NCBI RefSeq assembly: GCF_007997295.1 | Contig: NZ_VORY01000001.1 | Span: 434,001-498,000 of the forward strand | DNA: 64,000 nt | Direction: 5' to 3' | Source of the DNA: Gillisia hiemivivida | GTDB taxonomy: Bacteria > Bacteroidota > Bacteroidia > Flavobacteriales > Flavobacteriaceae | In this document: piece after piece, positions 1,145 to 17,312 of the stretch | Numbering within the stretch: position 1 is the first letter of the stretch | How the letters are laid out: each line of letters opens with the position of its first letter | Position numbers and translations under genes: made by a program | The notes under the pieces: model-generated | The model's database searches: none | Seen by the model: only the letters and a program-made list of their open reading frames with translations | What the model was told of the DNA's origin: nothing

Positions 1145-3631
1145 TTGAACAGGGCAGAACTTATAAAACTTGCAGAGAACTGGTTTGCTGAGCAGAACTG
1201 GAAATCATTTAAATTCCAAAGGGACACCTGGAAAAATTATCTTCAAAATAAAAATGGATTATTAAACGCTCCTACAGGAAGCGGAAAGACCTATGCTTTG
1301 TGGGTTCCTATTGTTTTAGAATACATCAAGAATAATCCAGACTATAAAACCAAACATAAAAAAGGACTTAAAGCAATCTGGATTACCCCGTTACGAGCGC
1401 TTTCAGTAGAAATAGAACAATCTGCCAAGAGATTTGCAGAGGAAATGGGCACTCAATTAACTGTTGGAATTAGAACTGGAGATACTTCGCAAAAAGAACG
1501 TGCAGCACAAAAGCGAATGATGCCGGATCTACTTATCACTACACCTGAGAGCCTTCAATTATTATTGTCATCCAAAGGCTACGACAAAACTTTCAAAGAT
1601 CTTAATGCCATTGTAATAGATGAGTGGCATGAAGTATTGGGGACAAAACGCGGTGTTCAAGTTGAATTAAGTTTATCCCGATTAAAATCGATCTCAAAAA
1701 AATTAAAGATCTGGGGGATTTCTGCAACAATTGGAAATCTTCAGGAAGCAAGAGAGGTCTTATTGGGTCCAGAATCTGTTGCTTATAAAAACTCGGTAAT
1801 GATCAAGGCAGATCTCAAGAAGAAAATAGATGTTCGCTCTATAATTCCGAAGAAAATGGAAAAGTTTCCGTGGAGAGGACATCTGGGTTTGCATTTAATT
1901 GCTGAGGTGGTCCCAATTATCAACAATTCAAAAACCACTTTAATATTTACCAATACACGCTCACAATGCGAACTCTGGTTTCAGAAATTAATGGAGAAAT
2001 ATCCTGAATTTGCCGGGGACGTGGCAATGCATCACGGAAGCATAAACAAGGAAACCAGACTTTGGGTAGAACAAGCCATTAGAAACGAATCTTTAAAAGC
2101 GGTGGTGTGTACTTCTAGTTTAGATCTTGGAGTTGATTTTGCACCTGTAGAAACTATCATTCAAATTGGTGGCCCAAAAGGAGTAGCAAGATTTATTCAG
2201 CGGGCGGGAAGAAGCGGACACCAGCCAGGAAAACAAAGTGTTATTTACTTTTTACCCACGCATGCTATCGAGTTAATTGAAGCTTCCGCATTGCAAAAAG
2301 CAGTGAATAAAACTGTCGTGGAAGATAGAATTCCGTATTTACTGAGTTTCGATGTTTTGGTGCAATACCTTACAACTCTTGCTGTCTCAGACGGATTTTT
2401 CCCTGCCGAGATCTATCCAGAGATCAAATCTACTTTTTGTTTTCAAGCAATAACCGAAGAACAATGGGAATGGGTGCTGAATTTTATTACCAAGGGAAGT
2501 CAGAGTTTGCAGGCTTATGACGAATATAAAAAGGTGGAAATAGAGGAAGACGGTAAATTTAAAGTGAATGATAAGGGAGTTGCCATGAGGCATAGGTTGC
2601 AAATTGGAACTATTGTGAGTGATGCTGTTCTCACTGTAAAATATATGAAAGGGGGCTTTATTGGAAGCATAGAAGAATGGTTCATTTCCAAATTAAAGCC
2701 TGGTGATGTGTTTACATTTGCAGGAAGAAACTTAGAATTGGTGCATATAAAGAATATGCAAGTGATTGTTAGGTCATCAAAAAGTAAAACTTCCAAAGTT
2801 CCCAGCTGGCAGGGAGGAAGAATGGCATTTTCTGCACAGATGAGCGAATTACTGCGAGAGGAAATGTACGAAGCTGCCGCTTCAATGGAAAAAGATACTG
2901 AAGGAAAAGCTAAGAAAACTTCAGAAGAATTAAAAGCCCTAAAACCCATTTTTGAAAGGCAATTACGAGAATCTATAATCCCGAAAAGCGATGAGTTTTT
3001 AATCGAAACTTTTAAGACAAGAGAAGGCTATCACGCCATTTTTTATCCTTTTGAGGGTAGATTTGTGCATGAAGCTCTTGGAAGTTTACTGGCATACAGG
3101 ATCAGTTTATTATTGCCAATAAGTTTTACGCTTGCATTTAATGATTATGGATTTGAGTTGCTTTCAGATCAAGAGATAAATATGGAACAGGTTCTCGATA
3201 ATAATCTTTTTTCAGCGGAGTTCCTGATGGACGATCTTTATAAAAGTTTAAATGCTACTGAAATGGCACGAAGAAAGTTTCGGGATGTGGCAGTTATTGC
3301 CGGTATGGTTTTTACGGGTTATCCCAATAAACTTATAAAAACAAAACACCTTCAGTCTAATTCGCAATTGCTTTTTAGTGTTTTTAGAGATTATGAGCCT
3401 GATAATCTTTTATTTCTTCAGGCTTTTCGAGAAACTTTTGAACATCAATTAGAGGAGGGTAGATTACGACAAGCTTTAGAACGCATCTCGCATCAGGAAA
3501 TAGTCTGGAAAGCCTGTGAGAAAGCAACTCCCTTTTCATTTCCAATAATTACAGATAGGCTTCGGGAGAAATTGACTTCAGAAAAAGTGGAAGACCGTAT
3601 CCGCAAAATGCTGAAACAATTAGAAAAGTGA
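1145..3631 (+). CDS. Ligase-associated DNA damage response DEXH-box helicase (Lhr-like)
   Basis: This 828-residue superfamily 2 helicase has a Walker A APTGSGKT at about residue 41, a DEWHEV Walker B box near 160, motif III SATIG near 197 and motif VI QRAGRSGH near 352. A winged-helix/Lhr-type C-terminal half follows. This matches the helicase of the bacterial ligase-associated DNA repair cluster (exonuclease, ATP-dependent ligase, helicase, PdeM phosphoesterase). TTG is the start: no ATG precedes the helicase core and the frame is closed just upstream. The next gene, 13 bp downstream, is PdeM, which supports the assignment. The ligase and exonuclease that normally accompany it are not in this window. 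Expected role: DNA unwinding in double-strand-break or damage repair in the cytoplasm. Confidence 0.88.
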   Translation: MNRAELIKLAENWFAEQNWKSFKFQRDTWKNYLQNKNGLLNAPTGSGKTYALWVPIVLEYIKNNPDYKTKHKKGLKAIWITPLRALSVEIEQSAKRFAEEMGTQLTVGIRTGDTSQKERAAQKRMMPDLLITTPESLQLLLSSKGYDKTFKDLNAIVIDEWHEVLGTKRGVQVELSLSRLKSISKKLKIWGISATIGNLQEAREVLLGPESVAYKNSVMIKADLKKKIDVRSIIPKKMEKFPWRGHLGLHLIAEVVPIINNSKTTLIFTNTRSQCELWFQKLMEKYPEFAGDVAMHHGSINKETRLWVEQAIRNESLKAVVCTSSLDLGVDFAPVETIIQIGGPKGVARFIQRAGRSGHQPGKQSVIYFLPTHAIELIEASALQKAVNKTVVEDRIPYLLSFDVLVQYLTTLAVSDGFFPAEIYPEIKSTFCFQAITEEQWEWVLNFITKGSQSLQAYDEYKKVEIEEDGKFKVNDKGVAMRHRLQIGTIVSDAVLTVKYMKGGFIGSIEEWFISKLKPGDVFTFAGRNLELVHIKNMQVIVRSSKSKTSKVPSWQGGRMAFSAQMSELLREEMYEAAASMEKDTEGKAKKTSEELKALKPIFERQLRESIIPKSDEFLIETFKTREGYHAIFYPFEGRFVHEALGSLLAYRISLLLPISFTLAFNDYGFELLSDQEINMEQVLDNNLFSAEFLMDDLYKSLNATEMARRKFRDVAVIAGMVFTGYPNKLIKTKHLQSNSQLLFSVFRDYEPDNLLFLQAFRETFEHQLEEGRLRQALERISHQEIVWKACEKATPFSFPIITDRLREKLTSEKVEDRIRKMLKQLEK

Positions 3632-3644
3632 TTAAATTTACGAG

Positions 3645-4280
3645 GTGATAGAAAAGATACACTTAGCCAATCAAACATTTATTTTGCATCCTTCCGGCAC
3701 TATGTTTTGGGAGGAGCAGGAAATGCTGCTTATTAGCGATGTGCATCTTGGAAAGATCTCGCATTTCCGAAAATATGGAAGCGCTGTTCCGCAGGCTGCT
3801 ATTTCAGAAAATTTCAGAAAAATGGATCAGGTGGTGGAATTCTTTTCACCAAGAAGTATTGTTTTTATGGGCGATCTTTTTCATAGTTCGTTGAATATGG
3901 AATGGGATCTATTTACACAATGGATGGAAACTATCGAAATTCCTGTAATCCTGGTTGCGGGAAATCATGATATTATCTCTGAATTGAAATATGAAGCTTT
4001 AGGAGTGAAGATCTATTCTGAAATGATATTGGGAAAAATCTTGCTAACGCACCACCCTGAAGAAAGAAAAGGCTTCTTTAATATTTGCGGACACCTTCAC
4101 CCCGGATTCAAATTAAGAGGGAACGGAAGGCAAACGCTTCAGTTACGTTGTTTTTATCAAAATAAAGAGCAGCTAATATTACCCGCATTTGGGGAGTTTA
4201 CAGGAAATTTCTGGATCTCACCAAGCGAGGGAGACCGTATCTTTGCAATAACCAAAACTGAAGTTATTTCAGTTTTTTAA
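3645..4280 (+). CDS. pdeM: Ligase-associated DNA damage response endonuclease PdeM
   Basis: This is a 211-residue calcineurin-like metallophosphoesterase. The metal-binding signature runs in order: SDVHLGK (about residue 31), MGDLFH (about 76), AGNHD (about 105), THHPEE (about 138) and CGHLHPG (about 150). Its size and position directly behind the Lhr-like helicase match PdeM of the ligase-associated repair cluster, a Mn-dependent phosphoesterase/endonuclease. The start is GTG with a plausible ribosome site (ACGAGG) just before it. The 13-bp gap to the helicase indicates one transcript. Confidence 0.85.
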   Translation: MIEKIHLANQTFILHPSGTMFWEEQEMLLISDVHLGKISHFRKYGSAVPQAAISENFRKMDQVVEFFSPRSIVFMGDLFHSSLNMEWDLFTQWMETIEIPVILVAGNHDIISELKYEALGVKIYSEMILGKILLTHHPEERKGFFNICGHLHPGFKLRGNGRQTLQLRCFYQNKEQLILPAFGEFTGNFWISPSEGDRIFAITKTEVISVF

Positions 4281-4292
4281 ACTTGAGAAATT

Positions 4293-5087
4293 ATGTACAA
4301 AAGATTAGCTATTGTCAATTTGTTATCGGTAATAACCGCTATTCTAGCCAGTTATTTTTCTCAGCTAGTCGGAATTAATGGGAATACAATAGGTAGTTTA
4401 AGTGCCGAATATGAAAATCTTTTCACTCCTGCAGGTTATGCTTTTGCTATTTGGGGACCTATTTACATAGCGCTGCTAATATTTTCAATTTATCAGGTTT
4501 ACAGATCTTATTCTGATGAGCCTAAGGATGGAAATGAGTTCAAGACCGGGCCTTGGTTTTATATTGCAAATTTCGCAAATGCTTCATGGGTATTCGCGTG
4601 GCTTTATGAGTATACTTTGATTTCGGTAATTTTGATGCTTATAATGTTAACCAGTCTTATCGCAATTATTATAAAAACCAATATGGAACGTTGGGATGCA
4701 CCAATTAGGATCATTGGTTTTTACTGGTGGCCAATATGTTTGTATTCCGGATGGATTACAGTAGCTACTATAGCCAATATAACTGCGTATTTGGCTAAAT
4801 TAGGATGGGATGGTGGTTTATTTACCGAGGTTCAATGGGCTATGATCATGATTGCCGCAGCAACTGTAATTAATATTACAATTATCCATACCAGAAACAT
4901 GAGAGAATTTGCTTTGGTCGGAGTGTGGGCCTTGGTAGCGATCTATGTAAAACAGCTTGATGAAAATACTACATTAGCCTATGTAGGTTTAATTGCCGCA
5001 GTGCTAATTTTTCTTAATATAGCTTATCATGGTTATGTTAACAGGAAGAGCAATCCAATGCATAAGATGATGTCTGGAAATTCTTAG
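4293..5087 (+). CDS. TspO/MBR-related tryptophan-rich membrane protein
   Basis: The protein has 264 residues and about seven hydrophobic segments from residue 5 to 255, rich in Trp. The stretch FTPAGYAFAIWGPIY near residue 45 is the motif that leads automatic annotation to the TspO/MBR tryptophan-rich sensory family. It is longer than classical TspO (about 160 residues, five helices), so it belongs to the longer Bacteroidota branch whose ligand is unknown. It starts 12 bp after pdeM and may be cotranscribed. Its stop overlaps the convergent reductase gene by 4 bp. Confidence 0.7.
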   Translation: MYKRLAIVNLLSVITAILASYFSQLVGINGNTIGSLSAEYENLFTPAGYAFAIWGPIYIALLIFSIYQVYRSYSDEPKDGNEFKTGPWFYIANFANASWVFAWLYEYTLISVILMLIMLTSLIAIIIKTNMERWDAPIRIIGFYWWPICLYSGWITVATIANITAYLAKLGWDGGLFTEVQWAMIMIAAATVINITIIHTRNMREFALVGVWALVAIYVKQLDENTTLAYVGLIAAVLIFLNIAYHGYVNRKSNPMHKMMSGNS

Positions 5088-6442
5088 ACCATACCTTTAA
5101 TGTCATTTCCCCAGGTTGGATACGCATAGATCATAGTCTTTAATTCCTTGCATGTTAATTTTCCACACATTGCCATTACAAACATATTTATGATCTCAGA
5201 AGCTTCCGGGCCTATTAAATGAGCGCCTAAAACAAGATCGGTTTTTTTATCTACTAGAGTCTTGTAAGCATATTCCTCTGTATTCACTCTTTTTGCATTA
5301 AACCATGTTGGCACCAACTTATGCTCTAGCCTATAATTATATCCTTTTTCTTTAGCTTCTTTTTCTGAAAGCCCTACGGAAGCAATATTAGGAAGTGTAA
5401 ATACTATGGAAGGTTGCGGAGGAAAATTTACTTCTTCAGGCTTGTTTGGGTTTAATAGATTGGCAATTACAATTAGTGCTTCTTGGGAGGAAAGTGGAGT
5501 CAAAGGCAGGCCTTCACTGTCTGATACATCTCCACAAGCAAAAACATTTTCATTAGTTGGATTCTGAAGATATTTATTTACAGAAACTCCTTTTTTGCTA
5601 AAAGAAACCTTCCCTTTTTCAAGATCTAGCTCTTCTATAGATGGAACTCTTCCAGCGGTATTAATAACGAGTTCTGCTTTTTCTGAAATTTCCTTTCCAT
5701 CTTGTTTTGCAGTAACTCGGTAATTTTTTCTTAGTTTTTCTATTTCTGAAACTTCAGCATTAAAAATGAATTTTATTCCTAGTTTTTCTGAAGCAGTGAC
5801 AAGATAACCCACCATGTCCTCATCAAAGTTAGTGAGAGGTCTGGAAGCGATGTCCATCATGGTTACTTTTACTCCAAGGCGTGCTGCCATATGGGCGAAC
5901 TCCATCCCAATATAACCAGCTCCAACAAAGATCATATTTTCGGGTAAATGCTTTAAATTTAAAAAGTCGTCACTTACAATAGCATGTTCCCTTCCCGGAA
6001 TCTTTAATTCCATTGGCCTTTGCCCAGTTGCAATTACTATTTTTTTAGCTATAATTGTTTTCCCTTCTACCGATAGCGTATTTTTATCTAAGAATTTCGG
6101 GGATTGATGAAACATAGTAACCCCCAGTTTTTCAAAATCTTTTTCTGTCGCTGCTGGAACTGCATCTACAAAAGTTTCTTTGAAAGCCATAAGATCTTCC
6201 CAACTGAATTCAGGCATTTTGGTAATTCCAAAACCTTTCATTTTATGAGCACGATCTATGATTTCTGTAAGGCCTAATAAAACTTTTTTGGGATCGCAAC
6301 CTCTGTTAGAACAAGTTCCTCCAAATTCACGACTGTCTGCAATTGCAACTTTCCAGCCTTCTTTCACACATGCTGTAGCTACTTTTTTACCAGCGGTACC
6401 AGTTCCAATTACAAAAACATCGTATTCTTCAAATTTTGACAT
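5084..6442 (-). CDS. FAD/NAD(P)-dependent pyridine nucleotide-disulfide oxidoreductase
   Basis: The 452-residue protein has the class I flavoprotein disulfide reductase layout. There is an N-terminal GTGTAGKK dinucleotide loop (residues 13-20), the redox pair C44-x4-C49 in GGTCSNRGCDP, a second nucleotide loop GAGYIGMEFA near residue 174, the FAD motif FACGDV near 312, and a C-terminal dimerisation domain. It is in the glutathione reductase / dihydrolipoyl dehydrogenase / mercuric reductase superfamily. There is no neighbouring 2-oxoacid dehydrogenase gene and the usual C-terminal His-Pro pair of those enzymes is not evident (the end reads YAYPTWGND). The substrate is therefore open; the closest annotation is a generic NAD(P)/FAD-dependent oxidoreductase. 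Convergent with the TspO-like gene. Confidence 0.82.
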   Translation of the reverse strand: MSKFEEYDVFVIGTGTAGKKVATACVKEGWKVAIADSREFGGTCSNRGCDPKKVLLGLTEIIDRAHKMKGFGITKMPEFSWEDLMAFKETFVDAVPAATEKDFEKLGVTMFHQSPKFLDKNTLSVEGKTIIAKKIVIATGQRPMELKIPGREHAIVSDDFLNLKHLPENMIFVGAGYIGMEFAHMAARLGVKVTMMDIASRPLTNFDEDMVGYLVTASEKLGIKFIFNAEVSEIEKLRKNYRVTAKQDGKEISEKAELVINTAGRVPSIEELDLEKGKVSFSKKGVSVNKYLQNPTNENVFACGDVSDSEGLPLTPLSSQEALIVIANLLNPNKPEEVNFPPQPSIVFTLPNIASVGLSEKEAKEKGYNYRLEHKLVPTWFNAKRVNTEEYAYKTLVDKKTDLVLGAHLIGPEASEIINMFVMAMCGKLTCKELKTMIYAYPTWGNDIKGMV

Positions 6443-6620
6443 AATTATTCTCTTAAATCGAGTTGAAATTAATTAAAAATTAACCAGAATGTTGATTTCT
6501 AGACGGTTTTAGGCTGAAATTAACACGCCCATCAAATTTCACGCGATTAAATTTTGGATTTGTACACAAAATAATATTAATATTTTGGGAGGGATAGCTT
6601 CAGCGATTATCTTTGCCGCA

Positions 6621-9600
6621 ATGAGTAACGCAACTATTGCCCAAACATTTGCAAAGTCTCTGCAACAGCAGAAACTTGAGAATTTTATTGCCTCTTCCCA
6701 AAATAATCTCACAAAAATTCAATTAAAAGGACTGGTAGGATCGTCATTATCCTATGTGCTTTCCAATGCTTTTAGCACTGCAGAACGACCATTTCTATTG
6801 ATATTTAATGATAAAGAAGAAGCTGCCTATTATTTGAACGATCTAGAACAATTAATGGGGGATAAGAATGTGCTTTTTTATCCGGGTAGTTATCGCAGGC
6901 CTTATGAACTTGAGGAAACAGATAATGCGAACGTGCTTTTAAGGGCAGAGGTTTTAAACCGCATTAATTCTCGAAAAAAACCGGCACTTATAGTTACTTA
7001 TCCAGATGCTTTATTCGAGAAAGTAGTTACCAGAAAAGAATTAGAAAAGAGCACTTTGAAGATCGCCGTTGGGGATCAGCTTTCTTTAGATTTTGTAAAT
7101 GAAGTTCTTTTTGAATATAAATTTACTCGAGTAGATTTTGTAACCGAACCGGGAGAATTTTCTGTGCGTGGTGGAATTATTGATGTCTTTTCCTTCAGTA
7201 ATGATGAGCCATATAGAATAGAATTCTTCGGAAATGAAGTGGATAGCATCAGAAGTTTCGATGTAGAAACTCAGCTTTCAACAGAAAAAGTAAAGAAGAT
7301 CTCGGTAATGCCGAATGTGGAACACAAACGTTTGGATGAGGTTAGGGAAAGTTTCTTGAAATATATTTCAGAAAAAACCATTGTCTTTATCAAGAATCCG
7401 GAATTGCTTTCTGGAGAAATGGACAAGTTATTTGGAAAGGCCCAAGAAGCATTTGCCAAATTAGGGGATGATATTAAACATAACAAACCGGAAGAATTAT
7501 TTTGTTCTTCAGGACTTTTAACCCAACAGTTAGAAGAATTCAAAGTTGTAAATCTTGGTAACCTTACCAATCTACGCAAGAAATCTAGCACTGCAGTAGT
7601 AGATGCAGGGGAGATTATAGAATTCCAAACCAAGCCGCAGCCATCATTTAATAAGCAGTTTGATCTACTGATAGATAACTTGATAGAAAATCAAGAATCA
7701 GGATACAAGAATTATATCTTTTGTGTGAGTGAGCAGCAAGCCAAGAGATTCCATGATATATTCGAAGATCAAGAGCGGGAAGTGAAATACAAAACTCTGG
7801 TGCTTTCTATGTATCAAGGTTTTATAGATGAAGATTCTAAAATGGTGTGTTATACAGACCATCAGATCTTCGAGCGTTATCATAAATTCCATTTAAAGAA
7901 TGGGTATGCTAAAAAGCAGGCCATTACTTTACAGGAGCTTACGAATTTAGAAGTAGGAGATTATGTTACGCATATAGATCACGGAATCGGGAAGTTTGGC
8001 GGACTTCAAAAGATCGATGTGGAAGGGAAGATGCAGGAAGCCATCAAATTATTCTACGGGGAGCGCGATATTTTGTATTTGAGTATTCATTCTCTACATA
8101 AGATCTCAAAATTCAACGGAAAGGATGGGAAACCACCAAAAATATATAAACTAGGTAGTAATGCCTGGAAAAACTTAAAACAGAAGACCAAGGCCAGAGT
8201 CAAGCATATCGCTTATAATCTAATTGAACTATATGCAAAGCGTAGAACTCAGGAAGGTTTTCAATATGGGCCAGATTCGTATTTGCAGTTAGAACTCGAA
8301 GCTTCGTTTTTATATGAAGATACTCCAGACCAAAGCACAGCTACAGCAGCAGTAAAGGAAGATATGGAGAGCCCAAGACCTATGGACCGTTTGGTTTGTG
8401 GAGATGTAGGTTTTGGAAAGACCGAAGTGGCTATTCGTGCAGCTTTTAAAGCCGTAGATAACGGAAAACAAGTAGCTATTCTAGTTCCTACTACCATTCT
8501 TGCTTTTCAGCATCATAAAACCTTTACAGAAAGGCTTAAAGATTTCCCAGTTACCGTAGATTATTTAAATCGTTTTAGAACTGCAAAAGAACGCAAGCAA
8601 ACCCTTGAAGATCTTGAAAGCGGAAGGGTGGATATTATTATTGGAACTCATCAGTTAGTCAGCAAGGCAGTAAAATTCAAAGATCTTGGGTTGTTGGTGG
8701 TAGATGAAGAACAAAAATTTGGGGTAGCGGTAAAAGATAAATTGAAAACCATCAAGGAAAATGTAGATACACTTACTCTAACTGCAACGCCAATTCCGCG
8801 TACGCTTCAGTTTAGTTTGATGGCAGCGAGAGATCTTTCTACCATTACCACACCGCCGCCAAACCGTTATCCTATTGAAACCAATGTGATTCGTTTTTCA
8901 GAAGAAACTATTCGTGATGCCATTTCTTATGAGATGCAACGTGGAGGACAGGTTTTCTTTATTCATAACAGGATCGAGAACATCAAGGAAGTTGCCGGAA
9001 TGATCCAGCGCTTGGTGCCAGATGCTAAAGTTGGGGTAGGACACGGACAAATGGAAGGGAAAAAGTTGGAAAAACTGATGTTGAGTTTTATGAACAGTGA
9101 ATTTGATGTGTTGGTTTCTACCACTATTGTTGAAAGCGGACTGGATGTTACCAATGCGAATACCATCTTTATTAATAACGCCAATAACTTTGGGCTTTCA
9201 GATCTGCACCAGATGCGCGGTAGAGTAGGACGAAGCAATAAAAAGGCTTTTTGTTATTTCATCACTCCGCCATATTCTGCAATGACAGACGATGCCAGAA
9301 AACGAATTACGGCTTTAGAGCAATTTTCTGATCTGGGAAGCGGAATAAACATCGCTATGAAAGATCTTGAGATTCGTGGAGCAGGAGATCTTCTTGGAGG
9401 AGAGCAAAGTGGATTTATAAATGATATTGGTTTTGATACCTATCAGAAAATATTGAATGAAGCTATTCAAGAGCTGAAAGAGAATGAATTCAAAGATCTT
9501 TATGAGGACACCACTGCTGCCGAGGATAAAGTATTTGTAAAAGATACCCAGATAGATACCGATTTCGAGTTGTTGTTCCCAGACGATTATATCAATAATA

Positions 9601-10034
9601 TCTCTGAGAGATTGAGTCTTTATACAAAGCTGAATAATTTGAAGACTGAAGAAGAGCTTCAGAAATTTGAAGCAGACCTGGAAGATCGTTTTGGAGAATT
9701 ACCTACACAGGCGATAGATCTACTGAATAGCGTTCGAATTAAATGGATCGCTTCTCATATTGGTTTAGAGAAAGTGATCATGAAGCAAGGAAAACTGATC
9801 GGATATTTTATTGCAGATCAGCAATCCAAATTCTATCAGACTCCAATTTTCACCAAGGTGTTACAGTATGTGCAAACACATTCGCATTCCTGCACCATGA
9901 AAGAAAAGAAAACAAGAGCAGGTTTACGATTGTTATTGACCTTTGAAAAAATTTCTTCTATTGAAAGAGCTTTAAAAGTTTTGGAGCCTTTAGATTTCAG
10001 AGTGAAAGTGGAGGAAGAGGTGAAGGCTGAATAA
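6621..10034 (+). CDS. mfd: Transcription-repair coupling factor Mfd
   Basis: The 1,137-residue SF2 translocase pushes stalled RNA polymerase off lesions and recruits UvrA. In order it shows a UvrB-homology N-terminal part (about 1-340), the RNAP-interacting CarD-like module near LEVGDYVTHIDHGIG (about 445), and the helicase core with Walker A GDVGFGKTE (K600) and DEEQKFG. Motif VI is GRVGRS, and a C-terminal TRCF domain follows. A TTG 36 bp upstream (6585) also opens this frame, but that sequence is AT-rich promoter-like DNA. ATG 6621, giving MSNATIAQTF, fits homologous starts better. The C-terminus ends in KVEEEVKAE. Part of this 3' end recurs at 13903-13944, past the accessory island. Confidence 0.95.
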   Translation: MSNATIAQTFAKSLQQQKLENFIASSQNNLTKIQLKGLVGSSLSYVLSNAFSTAERPFLLIFNDKEEAAYYLNDLEQLMGDKNVLFYPGSYRRPYELEETDNANVLLRAEVLNRINSRKKPALIVTYPDALFEKVVTRKELEKSTLKIAVGDQLSLDFVNEVLFEYKFTRVDFVTEPGEFSVRGGIIDVFSFSNDEPYRIEFFGNEVDSIRSFDVETQLSTEKVKKISVMPNVEHKRLDEVRESFLKYISEKTIVFIKNPELLSGEMDKLFGKAQEAFAKLGDDIKHNKPEELFCSSGLLTQQLEEFKVVNLGNLTNLRKKSSTAVVDAGEIIEFQTKPQPSFNKQFDLLIDNLIENQESGYKNYIFCVSEQQAKRFHDIFEDQEREVKYKTLVLSMYQGFIDEDSKMVCYTDHQIFERYHKFHLKNGYAKKQAITLQELTNLEVGDYVTHIDHGIGKFGGLQKIDVEGKMQEAIKLFYGERDILYLSIHSLHKISKFNGKDGKPPKIYKLGSNAWKNLKQKTKARVKHIAYNLIELYAKRRTQEGFQYGPDSYLQLELEASFLYEDTPDQSTATAAVKEDMESPRPMDRLVCGDVGFGKTEVAIRAAFKAVDNGKQVAILVPTTILAFQHHKTFTERLKDFPVTVDYLNRFRTAKERKQTLEDLESGRVDIIIGTHQLVSKAVKFKDLGLLVVDEEQKFGVAVKDKLKTIKENVDTLTLTATPIPRTLQFSLMAARDLSTITTPPPNRYPIETNVIRFSEETIRDAISYEMQRGGQVFFIHNRIENIKEVAGMIQRLVPDAKVGVGHGQMEGKKLEKLMLSFMNSEFDVLVSTTIVESGLDVTNANTIFINNANNFGLSDLHQMRGRVGRSNKKAFCYFITPPYSAMTDDARKRITALEQFSDLGSGINIAMKDLEIRGAGDLLGGEQSGFINDIGFDTYQKILNEAIQELKENEFKDLYEDTTAAEDKVFVKDTQIDTDFELLFPDDYINNISERLSLYTKLNNLKTEEELQKFEADLEDRFGELPTQAIDLLNSVRIKWIASHIGLEKVIMKQGKLIGYFIADQQSKFYQTPIFTKVLQYVQTHSHSCTMKEKKTRAGLRLLLTFEKISSIERALKVLEPLDFRVKVEEEVKAE
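9991..10026 (+). repeat. Direct repeat A (mfd 3' end), left flank of accessory island
   Basis: The last part of mfd here matches 13904-13939 over 36 bp with one mismatch (T10021 versus A13934), the first 30 bp being identical. The two copies bracket 3.9 kb of accessory genes in the manner of attachment-site repeats at a gene 3' end. Confidence 0.85.
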
Positions 10035-10047
10035 TTATTATTGCATC

Positions 10048-10065
10048 CCACCTAATTTTAGGAGG
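10048..10065. terminator. Short hairpin after mfd
   Basis: An 8-bp stem with one mismatch (CCaCCTAA / TTAGGaGG) lies 14 bp after the mfd stop. There is no strong T-run, so it is a weak terminator candidate. A similar hairpin follows the second mfd-tail copy at 13978-14000. Confidence 0.35.
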
Positions 10066-10091
10066 GGTAATCGAAAAGCGGGGGTAGCCAG

Positions 10092-10517
10092 TTATTGAAA
10101 GTTATCTCTAATAATAATAACTCGTTGTTTTGCTTCAATAATTTTTAGCTTATTTTTTTTAAAATCCTTTTTCATAATAAATATTCTTGGCAATTCTACA
10201 TTCTTTTCCGGTGTAGTATTTTCAAAGGTATTTATTAAAAGTTTTGTTATTGCGGCTCCAGTTGGAGTAATACTTACTCTATTTATATAATCTATCTCAT
10301 GCGTTTCAGTCTCAATTTCCTCTAAATAAATAGTATCCTCCTTATTATATAAATAAAAGAAATTGGTTTCATTTGATTTTATTTGGTAGTTAGAATTAAG
10401 AATTGCTTCATTATAGTCCAAGTATATTTTTTCCTTCTCTTCACATCCTAAAAATAAGATGCTAAATATTACTATAGAAAGAGAGAACCATTTTAATGTT
10501 AGTGTTTTATCCTTCAA
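10092..10517 (-). CDS. Small lipoprotein, partner of the truncated metallopeptidase-like gene
   Basis: About 141 residues from a TTG start at 10517. The frame is open further upstream, but those codons lie inside the preceding gene. An N-terminal hydrophobic stretch ends in a lipobox LFLGC near residue 22, so it is predicted to be exported and lipid-anchored. The mature part has no motif I recognise. Its start overlaps the stop of the upstream gene (10507-10509), suggesting translational coupling. The second metallopeptidase-like gene is also followed at once by a small lipoprotein gene, so the pairing is a recurring unit; an immunity or modulator role is inference only. Confidence 0.6.
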   Translation of the reverse strand: MKDKTLTLKWFSLSIVIFSILFLGCEEKEKIYLDYNEAILNSNYQIKSNETNFFYLYNKEDTIYLEEIETETHEIDYINRVSITPTGAAITKLLINTFENTTPEKNVELPRIFIMKKDFKKNKLKIIEAKQRVIIIRDNFQ

Positions 10518-11301
10518 CTCGACATCTTTTATCATAAATTTTGGCATAATCCACAAGTAGATTATAATCTGCTAACTGATTTTCAGTCAATTCATATACT
10601 CCATAACTTGCAAATATTTTGTAATCATCCATGCTACTAAAAAGTGCAGAATCATAATCATATAGAATTTGTGCCATCCTGTTTATAAAATGGTCTTCCA
10701 TAATAGCGTGACTGTAATTTCTCAATCCTTTTTTATTCATATATATTTTATAAAGCGCCTTAAAGGATTCATTGTGAAGATCTAATTTTTTTGCTAAAAA
10801 CGCATGGGCCATTTCATGTACCAAAGTTTTTGCAATTTCCATTGAGGAGCTATTTCCCATTCCGCTTAGAATTATATGGTATTCACCCTCTTCATTACCT
10901 CGTTCAGTTCCTCCCCCTTTGTATCCCAAATTCCCTTCACGAAAAACAAGATCTGCTCCACCAATATTCCCTTCACCGAACTCGATAAATAATTGAGTCA
11001 TCATGTTTATGTAACCGTTTGTGGGGTTGACTCCCGCCCATTGTAACCGATTATAAACACAGAGCTCTTTATCTTTTAATTGTACTGAGATTTCAACAAC
11101 TTCTTCCTCTTCAACAACTTCTTCTTCTGCAGTATACGTAGAGCCACCCCCACCCCCACGACTAGGATAGCTCCAAATGGATCCATAATCATAGCCACTC
11201 GCTGAACCAACAGGATAAATAGCGCTGATGGAGACATAAGGAGTTTTGGTTGGCGAAGAACTCTCTAAAATAACTTCATCTAAAGTTTGGTTACATCCCA
11301 T
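10507..11301 (-). CDS. HExxH metallopeptidase-like protein, 5'-truncated duplicate
   Basis: From the ATG at 11301 there are 264 residues: a leader segment starting MGCNQTLDE, a Gly-rich then Glu-rich linker (about 45-72) and a C-terminal zincin-like domain with VHEMAHAF near residue 163. The frame is open further upstream to about 11587. That upstream part matches codons of the full-length relative at 13085-13422. The homology ends abruptly at 11573, so the signal peptide and lipobox are missing and no ATG/GTG/TTG lies in the extension. As it stands the product would be cytoplasmic, or the copy is silent. The C-terminal domain differs from that of the other copy except for the HExxH helix and a downstream His-containing helix. 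Confidence 0.6.
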   Translation of the reverse strand: MGCNQTLDEVILESSSPTKTPYVSISAIYPVGSASGYDYGSIWSYPSRGGGGGSTYTAEEEVVEEEEVVEISVQLKDKELCVYNRLQWAGVNPTNGYINMMTQLFIEFGEGNIGGADLVFREGNLGYKGGGTERGNEEGEYHIILSGMGNSSSMEIAKTLVHEMAHAFLAKKLDLHNESFKALYKIYMNKKGLRNYSHAIMEDHFINRMAQILYDYDSALFSSMDDYKIFASYGVYELTENQLADYNLLVDYAKIYDKRCRVEG

Positions 11302-11573
11302 ATCAATACCTGCCCATCCCCCTTCATCACATTTTGAAGAGTTATCAAACTTTTCTTTCTTTACAAATCGCGTAATTAAATTTCCATTCTTGACTCTAAA
11401 CCCAGTTATAAATTTTAAATCTAGTTTAGAAATTATTATTTTACCAGTGAATAAAGTATCATTATTCTGGGGTTCTGGCTCAAGATTAAATAAAATAGGT
11501 TCGATATTTCCGTTTACTTCAAGTACTAAAACTCGACTGTCGACCTCTGTATATTTAGATTTCGCTGGGATAA
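11150..11573 (-). repeat. Duplicated leader block, copy 1
   Basis: This block aligns without gaps to about 13000-13422. In the 333 bp I compared base by base (11241-11573 against 13090-13422) there are about 14 mismatches, near 96% identity. It encodes the shared leader and Gly-rich linker of the two metallopeptidase-like genes; sequence on either side is unrelated. Confidence 0.9.
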
Positions 11574-11678
11574 TTATTTTTTATAAAATACCACTGTTTA
11601 TAAAATAAAAAATTTTGCAATTAAAGGGTTCCGCAATTAGTTATAAAAAAGAAAATAAAAGGGTTCTTAAGCGAAAAA

Positions 11679-12302
11679 TTATGAAATCCATATGCCTATA
11701 CTTTTGACAATAATCCATTTTCCATTTTTTCTTTCGAAAAAATAGAGGGCTGAATTTCCAGCTAATCCGCTTGTGCTCCTTGTGCCAATAATGACAGCTT
11801 TATCGCTGTTTGCATTAAAAGCAATTCTAGAAAAACTTATTAGTAGGTCAAATTTTAAATAATCTGAAACCTGAGGATCTAACAGCTGTTCTTTATATTC
11901 AATAATAGAATCTTTCCGTTTGGTTTTTATTAAAGACAAATCCAAAGGTTGGGCATCCAAAGATTTTAACTGTAAAACTAAGGTTTTAAATTCCTCATCT
12001 AGCTTTAAATTTTCAATTTCTAAATTCTTTCCTGAGATTAAATAACCAGGAATTGCAACTGTTTTAATTTCTCTACTCTGTTCCTCCCTAAGTTTAGTAA
12101 AGGTTCTTACCGTTTGCAGGGAATCTTCAGATATATAGCCCTCCAGTAATGGAGGAAAATCTTGTAGAGTAGGTAGAGCCAGAGTGTCGTAAAGTGTAAT
12201 TAAAATTTCGTTGGAATTTTCAAATTTCTCTTCAATTCCTATACCACATGAAGAAACAATCAGTACAATTGATACAGAATATTTAAGATACAAATTTCTC
12301 AT
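11679..12302 (-). CDS. Lipoprotein, partner of the second metallopeptidase-like gene
   Basis: 207 residues, with an N-terminal hydrophobic helix and lipobox VSSCGIG (Cys near residue 19), so it should be an exported lipoprotein. The C-terminal 70 residues (RIAFNANSDKAVIIG, then ALYFFERKNGKWIIV) look like a small beta-rich fold of the kind seen in NTF2-like or WG-like exported proteins, but I cannot assign a family. The start lies 13 bp after the metallopeptidase-like reading frame, so the two were probably cotranscribed. Confidence 0.7.
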   Translation of the reverse strand: MRNLYLKYSVSIVLIVSSCGIGIEEKFENSNEILITLYDTLALPTLQDFPPLLEGYISEDSLQTVRTFTKLREEQSREIKTVAIPGYLISGKNLEIENLKLDEEFKTLVLQLKSLDAQPLDLSLIKTKRKDSIIEYKEQLLDPQVSDYLKFDLLISFSRIAFNANSDKAVIIGTRSTSGLAGNSALYFFERKNGKWIIVKSIGIWIS

Positions 12303-12315
12303 ATTTCAATGGTTT

Positions 12316-13663
12316 TTATAAACAATCTTTGGCAAAAGTAGTGGTAGCTAAAATTGCTGCCTGATTTTTATAATATTCTGAATCCCTACCTTTATCTAAA
12401 GGTTTGAAAACGCCGTTATCATAATAACCATTATATCCGTATGCTCTTAATCCATCCCATCCAAACCCCATATAATGTTCCAAAGGATATCTAGAGCCAT
12501 CTAATTCCCTCATCGCTTGTGCAATAGGTTTTACATAATTATCTGCCATAAATTGATGTTGGACTGTTGTTGTAGCTAAGTCTAATCCATTTCTTGCTCC
12601 ATAATGATAATAATAATTAAGTAAATTTCTTCTTTGATTAGGATCTATCCCCTCATTGAATTCATATACATATTTATAAATTTCCGCATGTATCCCCTCG
12701 TGAAGCATTGTAGCAGCTAAATCTAAAGAATAATTACCAAAAGATTGAATTTTGATTATTACATTTCCGTTTTCAATATCACCTCCATTTGCACAGCCAT
12801 CTTTACCAATACCACAATAACCATCCTTTATAATTAATTTATAATTATCATTATTATCGAATACGCCAATTGTCTTTCCATAAAGCTTATTAATTTTTAA
12901 CTTTTCTAATAAACACCTGGCTCTTTTATTTAATTCAGAGTCATCAATTTTATCTTCAACAGGCTCGTGCTCCTCTTCAGGAGCACTTGTATAACCTACC
13001 CCCACCTTTACTAGGATAGCTCCAGCTAGTTCCACCGTCATAGCCACTCGCTGAACCAACAGGATAAATATGGCTGATAGATACCTAAGGAGTTTTGGTT
13101 GGCGAAGAACTCTCTAAAATAACTTCATCTAAAGTTTGGTTACATCCCATATCAATACCTGCCCATCCCCCTTCATCATATTTTGAAGAGTTATCAAACT
13201 TTTCTTTCTTTACAAATCGCGTAATTAAATTTCCATTCTTGACTCTAAACCCGGTTATAAATTTTAAATCCAAGTTAGAAATTATTATTTTACCAGTGAA
13301 CAAAGTATCGTTATTCTGTATTTCTGGCACAAGATTAAATAAAACAGGCTCGATATTTCCGTTTACTTCAAGCACTAAAACTCGACTGTCGACCTCTGTA
13401 TATTTAGATTTCGCTGGGATAACTGTTAATAGTTCTGTGCTATTATTAATGGTATCATAGTGAAGTTGATCATAATGAATAACAAGTTCTGCCTGTTTAT
13501 TTGAGTTGCTTTTCTTAAAATTTTTCAAATAATCGATAGCGTCCTTTTGAGACACGGTTGAAAAATGCTTGGATGAACTTTCATCGTGAATTTCAAGGGT
13601 TTCTTCTTTTTCACAGGAGGCACTAAAAATTACAAGCGCAAGCAATACGTAAATTTTCTTCAA
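12316..13663 (-). pseudogene. Broken lipoprotein with HExxH metallopeptidase-like domain (full-length copy)
   Basis: Two frames together form one ancestral gene. The first (13085-13663) has signal peptide MKKIYVLLALVIFSASC with lipobox at Cys17 and the leader shared with the other copy. It stops at a TAG (13085-13087) exactly where copy 1 reads TAT (Tyr). Beyond the stop the leader frame continues to align with copy 1 for about 30 codons. Then one extra base in the Gly-rich stretch (near 12997) shifts into the frame of the C-terminal domain (to 12316), which carries TMLHEGIHAEI, QHQFMADNY and a Cys near the end. Restoring both lesions would give about 445 residues. The 247-codon frame starting at TTG 13059 is only the shifted remainder. 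The lesions look real (several nearby substitutions), but sequencing error at the G-run is possible. Confidence 0.75.
13000..13422 (-). repeat. Duplicated leader block, copy 2
   Basis: Gapless partner of 11150-11573 apart from the indel at the Gly-rich end. Homology stops at 13422 in the middle of the coding sequence, which marks the breakpoint of the partial duplication. Confidence 0.9.
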
Positions 13664-13902
13664 GTTTAGGATCTTTTATATTGTTAGAAATATTGCGTAC
13701 TTGAAGGCGTTAAAACGCGTTACGGAGCAGCAAAACTGTTAATTTGAATAGGCAATATATATATACCTAAACCGCAAATTTTTTCTTTAAAAATTATTAG
13801 AAGTACTGCTAAAAGAAGTAATAATAGGACGTATTGGATCACTGTTTTTTAACTGTGAAAAAATCACAACAATAAAATGAAATTAAAAATAATAAGAGCT
13901 TT
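13664..13902. other. Intergenic leader upstream of the metallopeptidase-like gene
   Basis: An AT-rich stretch between the lipoprotein start and the mfd-tail remnant. I see no gene or recognisable promoter box; there is a short TA-rich run at about 13757-13773. Confidence 0.4.
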
Positions 13903-13944
13903 CTAGATTTCAGAGTGAAAGTGGAGGAAGAGGAGAAGGTTTAA
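13903..13944 (+). pseudogene. mfd: Displaced mfd 3'-end remnant
   Basis: Read on the plus strand, these 14 codons encode LDFRVKVEEEEKV and a TAA stop, nearly the same as the Mfd C-terminus LDFRVKVEEEVKAE. The bases before it are not mfd-like apart from a few positions. It is therefore a tail of mfd separated from the gene by the accessory island: either the original 3' end displaced by insertion or a copy created by recombination. Confidence 0.85.
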
Positions 13945-13977
13945 ATTTTACCCTTCAGTCATACCTGCGGAATTCCA

Positions 13978-14000
13978 CCTTCCCTAGAAAATAGGGGAGG
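13978..14000. terminator. Hairpin between mfd remnant and yraN
   Basis: A 9-bp stem (CCTTCCCTA / TAGGGGAGG with one G-T pair) and a 5-base loop. It sits after the mfd remnant as the weaker hairpin at 10048 sits after mfd, so it may be the old mfd terminator. No clear T-run. Confidence 0.4.
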
Positions 14001-14017
14001 AGCAAAAAATATGTTGT

Positions 14018-14377
14018 CTAGAAATACAAAAAAGCATTTTCCAAATGCTCTATTTTGGTACCTGATTGATTTTTGATAATCGCGATGATATCAAATCTAA
14101 CTTCTACGTCAAGATTATGTTCGTTCACAAAAAAGTCAACAGCTTTTACTAGATTCTGAATTTGTCTTCCTTTTACAAAATCCTGAGGATTCCCAAAGTC
14201 GGGAGTGCTTCGGGTTTTGACTTCTATTATGGCCAAAACATCCTTCTTTCTAACAATAATATCCACTTCTGCTTTTTGATGTCTGAAGTTTCTTGCAACT
14301 ATTTTGTAACCATGTTTAAGTAAATAAGCAACTGCTAATTCTTCCCCTTTTTTACCAAGCTCGTTATGAGATGCCAT
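14018..14377 (-). CDS. YraN family protein (UPF0102, endonuclease-like fold)
   Basis: 119 residues, the normal length for this family. The N-terminal GKKGEELAVAYL helix, the NFRHQKAEVDII segment and IIEVKTRS form the conserved E...D...ExK arrangement of Holliday-junction-resolvase-like folds (Glu near 12, Asp near 40, Glu-Val-Lys near 52-54). Function in the cell is unproven. It is convergent to mfd; in the ancestral order mfd and yraN were probably neighbours before the accessory island came between them. Confidence 0.85.
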   Translation of the reverse strand: MASHNELGKKGEELAVAYLLKHGYKIVARNFRHQKAEVDIIVRKKDVLAIIEVKTRSTPDFGNPQDFVKGRQIQNLVKAVDFFVNEHNLDVEVRFDIIAIIKNQSGTKIEHLENAFLYF

Positions 14378-14437
14378 TTACTGATTTCTAAAATGTGTTT
14401 TAAATGTACACTATTTCAGCTGATTACAGGATTTCGG

Positions 14438-15013
14438 TTACCCCCTAAACAAGATGGCTTTCACTTTAAGATCCATTTCTTTAATTTCTTCAGCAGTAGC
14501 CGTTATGATATGATCTCCGTAGAATTTGTTTTTTGGCTCCTTTTCTGGTGCAAGAAACACATGAACATTGGATTTCTCCAATTTTCCATCATTCCATGCT
14601 ACCGCTCCACTATAATCCCATCCAAAACCATAAAAAGAAATTGGTTTCTGATTCATTTTGGTCAATTCATCATAGGTAGATCCTATTTTTATTGAGGTCT
14701 TACTTTTCCATTTTCCGTTGGAATCCATTCTAATGTCCTCTATTTGAGTTCTATTTTTGTCTTTCCAAGTAATGTGCAATTCATCTGGAGTATTTGGAGA
14801 GATCACCGTATAGGCGCGTTCTTCAGTGCCTTCTTCAAACAAACCGACATCTTCAGTTATCACTTCATTTGTAAAGGTGTTTTTAAGAGTAGTATCATTC
14901 ATCTCTAATAGATCTTCAACAAATAGTTGTTTTGAACTGGGTGTTGCTGTATTTTTTGAAGAATTACAGGAAACTATGAGTAAAATGGCCGATAAATAGA
15001 AAAACTTGCGCAT
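14438..15013 (-). CDS. Lipoprotein of unknown function
   Basis: 191 residues with signal sequence MRKFFYLSAILLIVSC and lipobox at Cys16. The mature part resembles small Bacteroidota exported proteins with repeated charged beta segments (ERAYTVISPNTPDELHITW, then SIKIGSTYDEL). No catalytic motif is evident. It is upstream of yraN on the same strand with a 60-bp gap, and divergent from metG. Confidence 0.7.
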   Translation of the reverse strand: MRKFFYLSAILLIVSCNSSKNTATPSSKQLFVEDLLEMNDTTLKNTFTNEVITEDVGLFEEGTEERAYTVISPNTPDELHITWKDKNRTQIEDIRMDSNGKWKSKTSIKIGSTYDELTKMNQKPISFYGFGWDYSGAVAWNDGKLEKSNVHVFLAPEKEPKNKFYGDHIITATAEEIKEMDLKVKAILFRG

Positions 15014-15101
15014 AACTTATATTTTCAGCTAAAATCTAGTTCTATGGGGACATGAGCATTGTCTTTTGCAATAATTTAACGCATAGTATTTCACAGTTGC
15101 T

Positions 15102-15109
15102 TACCTTTG
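15102..15109 (+). promoter_or_regulatory. -7 box of metG promoter
   Basis: TACCTTTG matches the Bacteroidota consensus TAnnTTTG exactly. Transcription would start at about 15115, at the first base of the four-hairpin repeat, so that repeat would form nearly the whole metG leader. No clear -33 TTTG at the expected distance. Confidence 0.45.
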
Positions 15110-15116
15110 CAGCCTT

Positions 15117-15220
15117 AAATCCCTCACTGAGGGTTTAATTCCCCGAGGCTCTGCCTCGATTTTTAAAAGTATTTTCCTCCCGAGAATTCGGGATATAACT
15201 CGTGGGCTTACCCCAAGGTT
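15117..15220 (+). repeat. Four-hairpin dispersed repeat, copy 1 (metG leader)
   Basis: Four small palindromes in a row: CCCTCActGAGGG, CGAGGCtctGCCTCG, CCCGAgaaTTCGGG and TGGGcttaCCCCA, ending in AAGGTT. The same order recurs at 27466-27591. It ends 22 bp before the metG ATG. Confidence 0.85.
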
Positions 15221-15242
15221 ATTAATTAAATTTTAGAAGCTA

Positions 15243-17312
15243 ATGAGCAATTCGCCACAACGTTATACAATTACTGCAGCATTACCATATACCAATGGAC
15301 CTATTCATATTGGGCATTTAGCAGGAGTTTATGTGCCAGCAGACATTTATGCCCGATTTTTAAGAATGCAAGGGAAAGATGTAGCTTTTGTATGCGGAAG
15401 CGATGAACATGGAGTTGCTATTCCTATGAAGGCGAAGAAAGAGGGAATTACATCACAAGAATTAATAGATAAATACCATGGGATCATTAAGCAATCCTTT
15501 GTGGATTTTGGGGTGACTTTCGATAATTATTCCAGAACATCGAATAAGATTCATCATGAAACAGCTTCAGAATTTTTCAAGAAGTTATATGAAGACGGAA
15601 AGTTTATAGAAGAAACTACCGAGCAGTTATATGATAAAGAAGCAAATCAATTTTTAGCAGATCGATTTGTTACGGGAACTTGCCCGAAATGCGGGAATCC
15701 GGAAGCTTATGGTGATCAATGTGAAAGCTGTGGAAGTTCTTTGAATGCAACAGATCTTATTAGTCCTAAGTCGGCTATAACAGGTGCTGTTCCTAGCATG
15801 AAGGAGACTAGGCACTGGTTTTTGCCTTTAGATCAATATGAAGATTTCTTAAGGGAATGGATCCTGGAAGGACACAAAAAAGATTGGAAGGCCAATGTGT
15901 ATGGGCAAGTAAAATCCTGGGTAGACGAAGGCTTGAGAGCACGTGCCGTAACTCGCGATCTGGATTGGGGAATTCCTGTTCCTGTTGAAGGTGGCGAAGG
16001 AAAAGTGCTATATGTATGGTTTGATGCTCCAATTGGATATATCTCTTCTACCAAAGAATGGGCAGCACGTGAAGGAAAGAACTGGGAAGATTACTGGAAG
16101 AAAGAGGACACCAAAATGGTGCATTTTATAGGAAAGGATAATATCGTTTTTCACTGTATTATTTTTCCAATTATGCTGAAAGCAGAAGGAAGTTACATTC
16201 TTCCTGAAAATGTACCTGCTAACGAATTTTTGAATTTGGAAGGAAAAAAACTTTCCACTTCTAAGAACTGGGCTGTTTGGTTGCATGAATATTTGGAAGA
16301 TTTTCCAAATCAGCAAGATGTGTTGAGGTATACCCTTACCGCCAATGCACCGGAAACTAAGGATAACGATTTTACCTGGAAAGATTTTCAGTCAAGGAAT
16401 AACAATGAGTTGGTTGCGATCTTCGGGAATTTTATAAACCGTGCAGTAGTGCTTACAGATAAGTATTATGAAGGAGTAGTTCCAGCATCGGGAGATTTTA
16501 CAGAAGTGGATGAGCAAACCTTAGCTGCGGTAAAAGCATATCCAGCAGTAATAGCAAGTTCTATAGAGAGATATAGATTTAGAGAAGCCCAAGGGGAATT
16601 GATGAATTTGGCTAGATTAGGTAATAAATACCTGGCAGATGAGGAGCCATGGAAAGTGGTGAAAACCGATCCAGAACGAGTGAAAACGGTTATGTTTGTA
16701 GCGCTTCAGATTTCTGCTGCTTTAGCAACTTTAAGTGAGCCATTCCTGCCTTTTACTTCAGAAAAATTAAAAACTATTTTAAATATTTCTCCAAGCGAAG
16801 GGGCTCTTAAATGGGAAGAAATTTCAGCAAAAGATTCTTTAATTCTTGCGGGACATAAAATAGGAAAAGCAGAATTGCTTTTCAGTAAAATTGAAGATGA
16901 ACAAATTCAACAACAATTAGATAAATTGGAGGCAACAAAAGCCGCTAACGAAGCTGATAATAAAATAGCAGAACCACAAAAAGAGGAATCGACCTTCGAA
17001 GATTTCTCTAAAATGGACCTGCGTGTTGGAACTATAGTAGAAGCTAAAAAAATGCCAAAGGCAGATAAATTATTGGTGCTCAAGGTGGATACTGGGATTG
17101 ATGTAAGAACCATAGTTTCTGGAATTGCAAAAAGTTTTAAGGCTGAAGACATCATTGGTAAAAAGGTAACTGTAATGGTAAATCTTGCTCCTCGTAAATT
17201 AAGAGGGGTAGAAAGTCAAGGAATGATCTTGATGACTGAAAATGCTGAAGGGAAGCTGGTGTTCTTGAATCCAGATGAAGAAGACGTGAAGGACGGGACT
17301 ATAATTAGCTAG
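15243..17312 (+). CDS. metG: Methionine--tRNA ligase
   Basis: This 689-residue cytoplasmic enzyme charges tRNA-Met. The HIGH motif is at residues 22-25 (PIHIGHL), the zinc knuckle CPKCG...CESCG is near 144-160, and the KMSKS-type loop is KKLSTSKNW near 337. The anticodon-binding domain follows. The C-terminal ~110 residues (from about [20 protein letters not shown]) are the EMAP/Trbp111-like tRNA-binding and dimerisation domain. Length and order are normal for the bacterial two-part enzyme. The ATG start agrees with homologues. The leader consists of a dispersed hairpin repeat. Confidence 0.96.

Follow-up and report, generated by a model that had tools for sequence, protein, structure and literature searches.

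Polymorphic toxin systems have a conserved N-terminal region joined to exchangeable C-terminal domains, partner genes that vary together with these domains, and stored cassettes (PMC3482391; this and the other papers are cited from excerpts). In the SitA/SitI system, a lipobox leader precedes a variable C-terminal toxin, an immunity gene is located directly downstream, and several unrelated leader families exist (PMC5562445, PMC8546572). In Capnocytophaga, acidic residues right after the lipid-bearing Cys direct lipoproteins to the cell surface (PMC5080379). The locus described here lies in a stretch of 64,000 nucleotides of Gillisia hiemivivida (NZ_VORY01000001.1, 434,001-498,000), called the window, whose own numbering is used below. 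We give a probability of roughly 0.8 to the reading that a polymorphic toxin-immunity system of Flavobacteriaceae, with lipoprotein-tethered toxins, is represented here by an array of two cassettes that has decayed. The locus consists of two minus-strand cassettes situated between the gene at 6585-10034 (+), which we take to be mfd, and a gene that is presumably yraN-like (Table 1). Each cassette comprises leader and linker DNA, a C-terminal metallopeptidase domain (the tip; leader and tip together form the putative toxin) and a gene coding for a small lipoprotein (the partner, LIPO1 in copy 1 and LIPO2 in copy 2).

The leader and linker DNA common to both copies is identical at 397 of 428 bp (93%, blastn E reported as 0.0), and its first 333 bp are 95.8% identical, in accordance with the ~96% given in a preliminary description of this DNA. 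The identity stops within the Gly-rich linker. Beyond it the C-termini are ~25% identical, so that the different C-terminal domains around HExxH proposed in that description are confirmed. LIPO1 starts 13 bp past the tip-1 stop, and the end of tip 2 is overlapped by LIPO2. LIPO1 and LIPO2 are mutually unmatched, as expected from the earlier claim that each copy is followed at once by an unrelated small lipoprotein gene. The copy 1 leader matches the leader profile described below at E 3e-69, although this profile contains that leader itself.

Using a single-protein query, the leader was found in eight of 249 family genomes; within the genus it is present in three of 16 genomes (own genome included in both counts). 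A profile built from 10 aligned leaders was also searched in 397 family genomes. With up to eight candidates scored per genome, it gave rows at E ≤0.001 in at least 84 of them. Since most of the weaker rows match the signal-peptide end alone, counting was limited to matches with E 2.4e-9 or better, that is, at least 22 places in at least 18 of the 397 genomes, eight of the 22 being members of the profile itself. Twenty of the 22 could be read, the other two being one place cut by a contig end and one that was not fetched. The tips found on these 20 leaders are HExxH domains (8), M23 domains (5), JAB-motif domains (3) and domains without assignment (4). M23 tips exceed the Pfam cut-off in five leader-bearing genes, whereas the JAB assignments (L113, L124 and L029, all without Pfam match) are motifs matched by eye to the table in PMC3482391. 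A conserved N-terminal leader is thus joined to several unrelated C-terminal domains, as in polymorphic toxins. A leader always attached to one and the same C-terminus had been named beforehand as what would refute the exchangeable tip of the preliminary description, and the claim withstands this test. The lipobox Cys is invariant across the 10 aligned leaders, which gives the toxin a type II signal peptide. None of the leaders scanned reached the cut-off of any Pfam or NCBIfam family.

For comparison, 40 wide loci besides the window were fetched (L numbers denote loci and G numbers genomes). The loci used for co-variation were picked by similarity of tip or leader, never by partner. The tip tree contains 38 tips, taken from 46 tip open reading frames (ORFs) after leaving out eight with ≤110 profile positions, and one of the 38, at a contig edge, has no partner in reach. 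The clade of tip 1 comprises 20 tips, 19 of which could be judged for partner. A LIPO1-family gene is located downstream of 18 of these 19 tips and of none of the 18 tips outside the clade (Fisher p 1.1e-9). The 18 LIPO1-partnered tips either stand behind leaders of seven clusters (N1, N2, N3, N5, N6, N8 and N9, obtained by phmmer single linkage at E 1e-5 and possibly still remotely homologous), two of these clusters being seen just as leaders that lack the signal peptide, or have no scored leader; the latter cases are cassettes or broken genes. Cluster N4 (L088) was taken out of the count because it is the part after a stop and not a leader. For the type of copy 1, the partner follows the tip and not the leader. 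The cognate partner proposed earlier, which partners varying independently of the C-terminal domain were to have refuted, is upheld to this extent.

With respect to the nature of the partners, 59 of 63 toxin rows have one. Five were dropped, their "partner" being the tip half of a broken toxin, and 48 of the remaining 54 show a signal-like N-terminus, which suggests a site of action outside the cytoplasm for most tips, as would be the case for M23 on peptidoglycan. Two leader-bearing toxins whose tips lack assignment (L126 and L127) have partners without signal peptide, and these tips may therefore act in the cytoplasm. In L113 and L124, the gene that comes after the JAB-motif tip is of the DUF6705 type (E 1e-57, and 2e-4, the latter under the cut-off), which suggests DUF6705 as an immunity family.

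The tip-1 query matches 46 of 397 family genomes, own included, and the tip-2 query 10 of 299 genomes. Iterated profiles place both tips in one HExxH superfamily, and HExxH and the distal His are invariant in all 33 aligned tips, those of both window copies among them. Tip 2 matches the Pfam SprT-like family (PF10263) at E 1.8e-4 with 21.7 bits, the cut-off being 25.6, and weak SprT-like matches are found in seven of the 33 superfamily tips at E ≤0.01 (best 4.1e-7). Profile matches to Spartan in the Protein Data Bank are insignificant (E 0.11). Tox-MPTase3 (PF15639) is listed neither for tip 1 nor for tip 2 (E up to 1), and it weakly matches two of the 33 tips (best E 5.9e-4). Of the three genomes that hold a true Tox-MPTase3 gene, two have it in the same layout as here, with a lipobox, a Gly-rich linker and the tip, and with an exported partner.

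Two other origins of the toxins were considered and rejected. Cargo of phages or plasmids is not indicated, since tip 1 is unmatched in phage and plasmid collections and the 10 aligned leaders have no match in PHROGs. Cargo of the type IX secretion system (T9SS), the type VI secretion system or contact-dependent inhibition was dropped because the toxins scanned against Pfam gave, at the thresholds used, no match to a T9SS sorting, RHS/PAAR/VgrG or two-partner secretion domain. Their sole T9SS-related match is an insignificant one to the T9SS plug (E 0.042), in one protein.

Leader or linker DNA is repeated within eight of the 40 fetched loci (L091, L093, L102, L103, L104, L105, L109 and L123). 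For instance, L105 contains three leaders 98.6-99.6% identical in DNA whose partners are mutually unmatched; in one toxin pair of this locus, 96% identity extends over just the first ~290 residues. Two contigs of G109 open with one linker, and their tips differ and their partners are unrelated. Orphan tip-immunity cassettes that share leader or linker DNA were found in the window (copy 2), L102, L103 and L123. In L123, a full M23 toxin has downstream of it a leaderless tip and partner, which share 80% (tip) and 64% (partner) identity with their live counterparts in L114, a locus from the same genus. The live tips of L123 and L114, in contrast, are 44% identical, and their partners are unmatched. 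The orphan cassettes suggested earlier for copy 2 therefore have counterparts that follow full toxins elsewhere, one pair resembling the live pair of a congener. Tandem repeats (80-83%) at L113 (6791-8103) and L121 (6669-7789) begin approximately where the partner gene follows the toxin and resemble polyimmunity loci. In L100, a 1.55-kb direct repeat (3482-5030 and 6138-7685, 90%) flanks a tip-1-type gene and its partner.

The yraN gene was located in 15 loci of the 16 genus genomes. In nine of them, besides the window, mfd adjoins yraN without a toxin, and five have other neighbours in the fetched stretch. In all three leader-bearing Gillisia genomes (window, G003 and G012) the leader lies beside the 3' end of mfd. 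G003 has a leader without tip there, G012 has a tip without assignment and a partner without signal peptide, and the partners of the three genomes are mutually unmatched. A second mfd 3' end is present on the far side of all three cassettes (97 bp at 76%, 110 bp at 85% and 105 bp at 73%); outside the window the repeats are at 6149-6258 and 7947-8056 of L125 and near 5666-5750 of L126. One copy of the mfd 3' end was found in nine of nine cassette-free sites, and none of 24 other mfd pieces has a second copy at window positions 10035-16000. It looks as if the cassette had arrived with a new mfd end. The site of G006 has no toxin, but a gene there codes for a protein that shares 46% identity over 83 residues with the G003 partner. 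No integrase was found among the ORFs of the stretch. In the cassette-free L132 (1942-2301) and L136 (1940-2299) a small gene of 119 amino acids, which we presume to be DUF559-like, lies between yraN and mfd, so that this may be a hot spot for insertions in general. The G+C content of the cassette region (10000-14000) is 31-35%, whereas mfd and the large gene that comes next have 36-40%.

The toxins and their partners differ in their export signals. An acidic signal was scored where positions +2 to +6, counted from the lipid-bearing Cys, hold two or more acidic residues. It is present in 25 of the 29 toxin ORFs whose lipobox was recognised, in two of 29 partners and in 10 of 55 further lipobox ORFs from these loci, the 55 coming from a simple finder that will include false lipoproteins. 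The lipobox finder took the wrong Cys in L112 and L116, and both were kept in the count as failures. The copy 1 leader carries the signal CEKEE. Among 14 toxin-partner pairs, the toxin has more acidic residues in 11, an equal number in two and fewer in one. Many leaders share descent; outside the main cluster N1, seven of eight toxins still pass, two of the seven being near-identical L105 copies. This contrast supports the surface display that had been proposed, as a prediction from the export signals.

These data bear on another reading, according to which the leader would be a surface protease scaffold for nutrition or matrix turnover, and the small lipoprotein a chaperone, a propeptide-like inhibitor or a subunit. 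Most named tips are indeed hydrolases with HExxH or M23 signatures, and Bacteroidota often use their surface lipoproteins to acquire carbohydrates (PMC5080379). However, leaderless stored cassettes, near-identical leaders with unrelated partners in one genome and repeats starting at the partner gene are not expected of such a scaffold, nor are opposite export signals expected of an enzyme and its chaperone, and we consider it improbable.

Both window copies carry lesions. An in-frame TAG (13085-13087) ends the copy 1 leader and the HExxH domain lies in another frame. Therefore, of the two genes initially described, the shared DNA stands but copy 1 does not form a single intact gene. It probably starts at a TTG, in a place where two relatives of the genus have ATG. 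The open frame of copy 2 spans the leader remnant, the linker and the tip, with no ATG, GTG or TTG before its first start codon, the ATG at 11301. The absence of a signal peptide had been correctly noticed in this copy, but it is part of a larger loss of ~71 first leader residues. Leader-tip breaks like that of copy 1 are also present in L088 and L110, and the signal peptide of the middle toxin of L105 is out of frame.

Two explanations of these breaks have to be weighed. There is about an even chance that the locus is, in this strain, pseudogene debris: the remnants of a once mobile locus without present function. The stop, frame change and non-ATG start of copy 1, the 5' truncation of copy 2 and the similar breaks in L088, L110 and the middle copy of L105 are in line with it, although both lipoprotein frames are open and both window tips retain HExxH and the distal His. 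Since open full-length leader-tip genes are present in other genomes, this explanation concerns the strain and not the system, and it is compatible with a decayed toxin-immunity array. On the other hand, the recurrence of breaks in four loci (window, L088, L110 and L105), together with near-identical stored leaders that could recombine, might point to regulated switching by phase variation, recoding or segmental recombination, with the toxin on in some cells. This is highly improbable, as copy 1 has two separate lesions besides its non-ATG start and the breaks of the four loci differ in kind and place. Because copy 1 is broken and copy 2 lacks the leader start, the locus probably acts through its immunity genes alone, if at all.

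As a toxin-immunity system, it might work as follows. In intact relatives, the lipobox leader with its acidic signal would mount an exchangeable enzymatic tip on the outside of the outer membrane. This tip, an HExxH metallopeptidase in the present case, would attack a periplasmic target in a neighbouring cell, reached by contact or through vesicles, while the lipoprotein or exported protein encoded downstream would stay on the periplasmic side of the producer and block the tip. New tips would come as tip-plus-immunity cassettes that share leader and linker DNA with the resident gene, and the arrived cassettes would be stored downstream without signal peptide. A more specific proposal, which we advance tentatively and at slightly less than even odds, is that the flip of outer-membrane lipoproteins serves as a weapon mount: the presence or absence of the acidic signal would sort toxin and antidote, each a lipoprotein or an exported protein, to opposite faces of the membrane, and tip-plus-antidote cassettes would be exchanged at the leader and linker, in Gillisia inserted at the mfd 3' end. 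It is a comparably tentative part of this proposal that the tip is displayed to neighbours and the antidote guards the producer's own periplasm. If true, a tip-swapping lipoprotein weapon would widen the known ways in which bacteria attack their neighbours. From it follows a sorting rule open to direct test, with the toxin at the cell surface and the antidote in the periplasm, and it points to DUF6705 and the LIPO1 family as having a role in immunity.

Several observations weigh against the toxin-immunity interpretation. Both toxin copies appear to be non-functional in the window genome. With respect to the partners, L106 belongs to the tip-1 clade and has another partner. In the reverse search, covering 13 of the 16 strong LIPO1-profile places, eight of the 13 have a tip directly upstream; this splits into seven of eight places from genomes that had contributed to the profile and one of five others, where the tip is a fragment. 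Among weaker LIPO1 loci, two of the 17 read have a tip directly upstream. LIPO1-type genes thus also occur away from tips; they may be spare immunity genes, or the family may be broader than an immunity role. No clear relative of LIPO2 was found in 199 genomes, and its N-terminus is acidic (CEEKEK), like that of a toxin and unlike those of nearly all other partners. The AlphaFold models of both window tips are unusable (mean predicted local distance difference test scores of 41 and 37). Delivery is the least supported step of the mechanism: no delivery gene turned up, although no search was aimed at delivery genes, TraAB included.

Table 1. Features of the two-cassette locus and its flanks (window positions).
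Feature	Position	Strand	Remarks
Mfd 3' end, left flank	9931..10026	+	End of the presumed mfd gene
LIPO2	10092..10529	-	Lipoprotein from ATG 10529; likely partner of tip 2
Copy 2 C-terminal metallopeptidase domain	10507..11115	-	HEMAH and distal His; SprT-like
Copy 2 partial leader and linker	11149..11573	-	First ~71 leader residues, with signal peptide, absent
LIPO1	11679..12302	-	Lipoprotein of 207 amino acids; likely immunity protein of tip 1
Copy 1 C-terminal metallopeptidase domain	12316..13059	-	HEGIH and distal His; not in the frame of the leader
Copy 1 part common to copy 2 (leader and linker)	12995..13422	-	blastn
Copy 1 leader	13088..13663	-	192 amino acids; signal peptide and lipobox (Cys17, then EKEE); TTG start
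Degenerate second mfd 3' end, far side of cassettes	13843..13939	+	97 bp, 76%
YraN-like gene (presumed), right flank	14018..14377	-	Served to locate the site in relatives

A literature search returned, in the excerpts covered, no description of this leader or tip family. The general kind of system is known, and the leader, the tip-1 domain and LIPO1 are without a family name at cut-off in Pfam and NCBIfam. The BSAP proteins are lipoproteins as well, and we know of no exchangeable peptidase tip in them. BSAP are antibacterial, pore-forming proteins of Bacteroidales, in the same phylum (PMC12853789). The closest likeness of LIPO1 and LIPO2 to a described immunity protein concerns Imm65, an exported lipoprotein of Bacteroidetes that protects against Tox-JAB-1 (PMC3482391); however, neither LIPO1 nor LIPO2 matches a Pfam family at cut-off, and two JAB-motif tips have DUF6705-type partners here. 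The tips themselves are similar to Tox-MPTase1-5 and SprT-like domains in being small C-terminal HExxH domains with weak matches to them (PMC3482391, PF15639, PF10263). Tox-MPTase1-5 are typically described with RHS repeats (PMC3482391). The window tips remain under the cut-offs of these two Pfam families.

The APD1 and APD2 effectors of Amoebophilus and the Microscilla-N toxins, likewise proteins of Bacteroidetes, show a conserved N-terminus (with a lipobox in APD) and polymorphic C-termini (PMC3482391). The APD proteins are predicted to act against a eukaryotic host and to be deployed in parallel (PMC3482391), in contrast to the co-varying partner and stored cassettes found here. With respect to SitA, whose tips are nucleases acting in the cytoplasm and which is delivered by TraAB outer-membrane exchange (PMC5562445, PMC8546572), the named tips of the present system are mostly peptidase-like and 48 of 54 partners look exported. 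The window toxins do not end in a nuclease that acts in the cytoplasm, their tips being HExxH domains with lipoprotein partners. By analogy the system may work like SitA, and the two have in common the lipobox leader, the variable C-terminal domain, the gene directly downstream for a proven or putative immunity protein and the several unrelated leader families.

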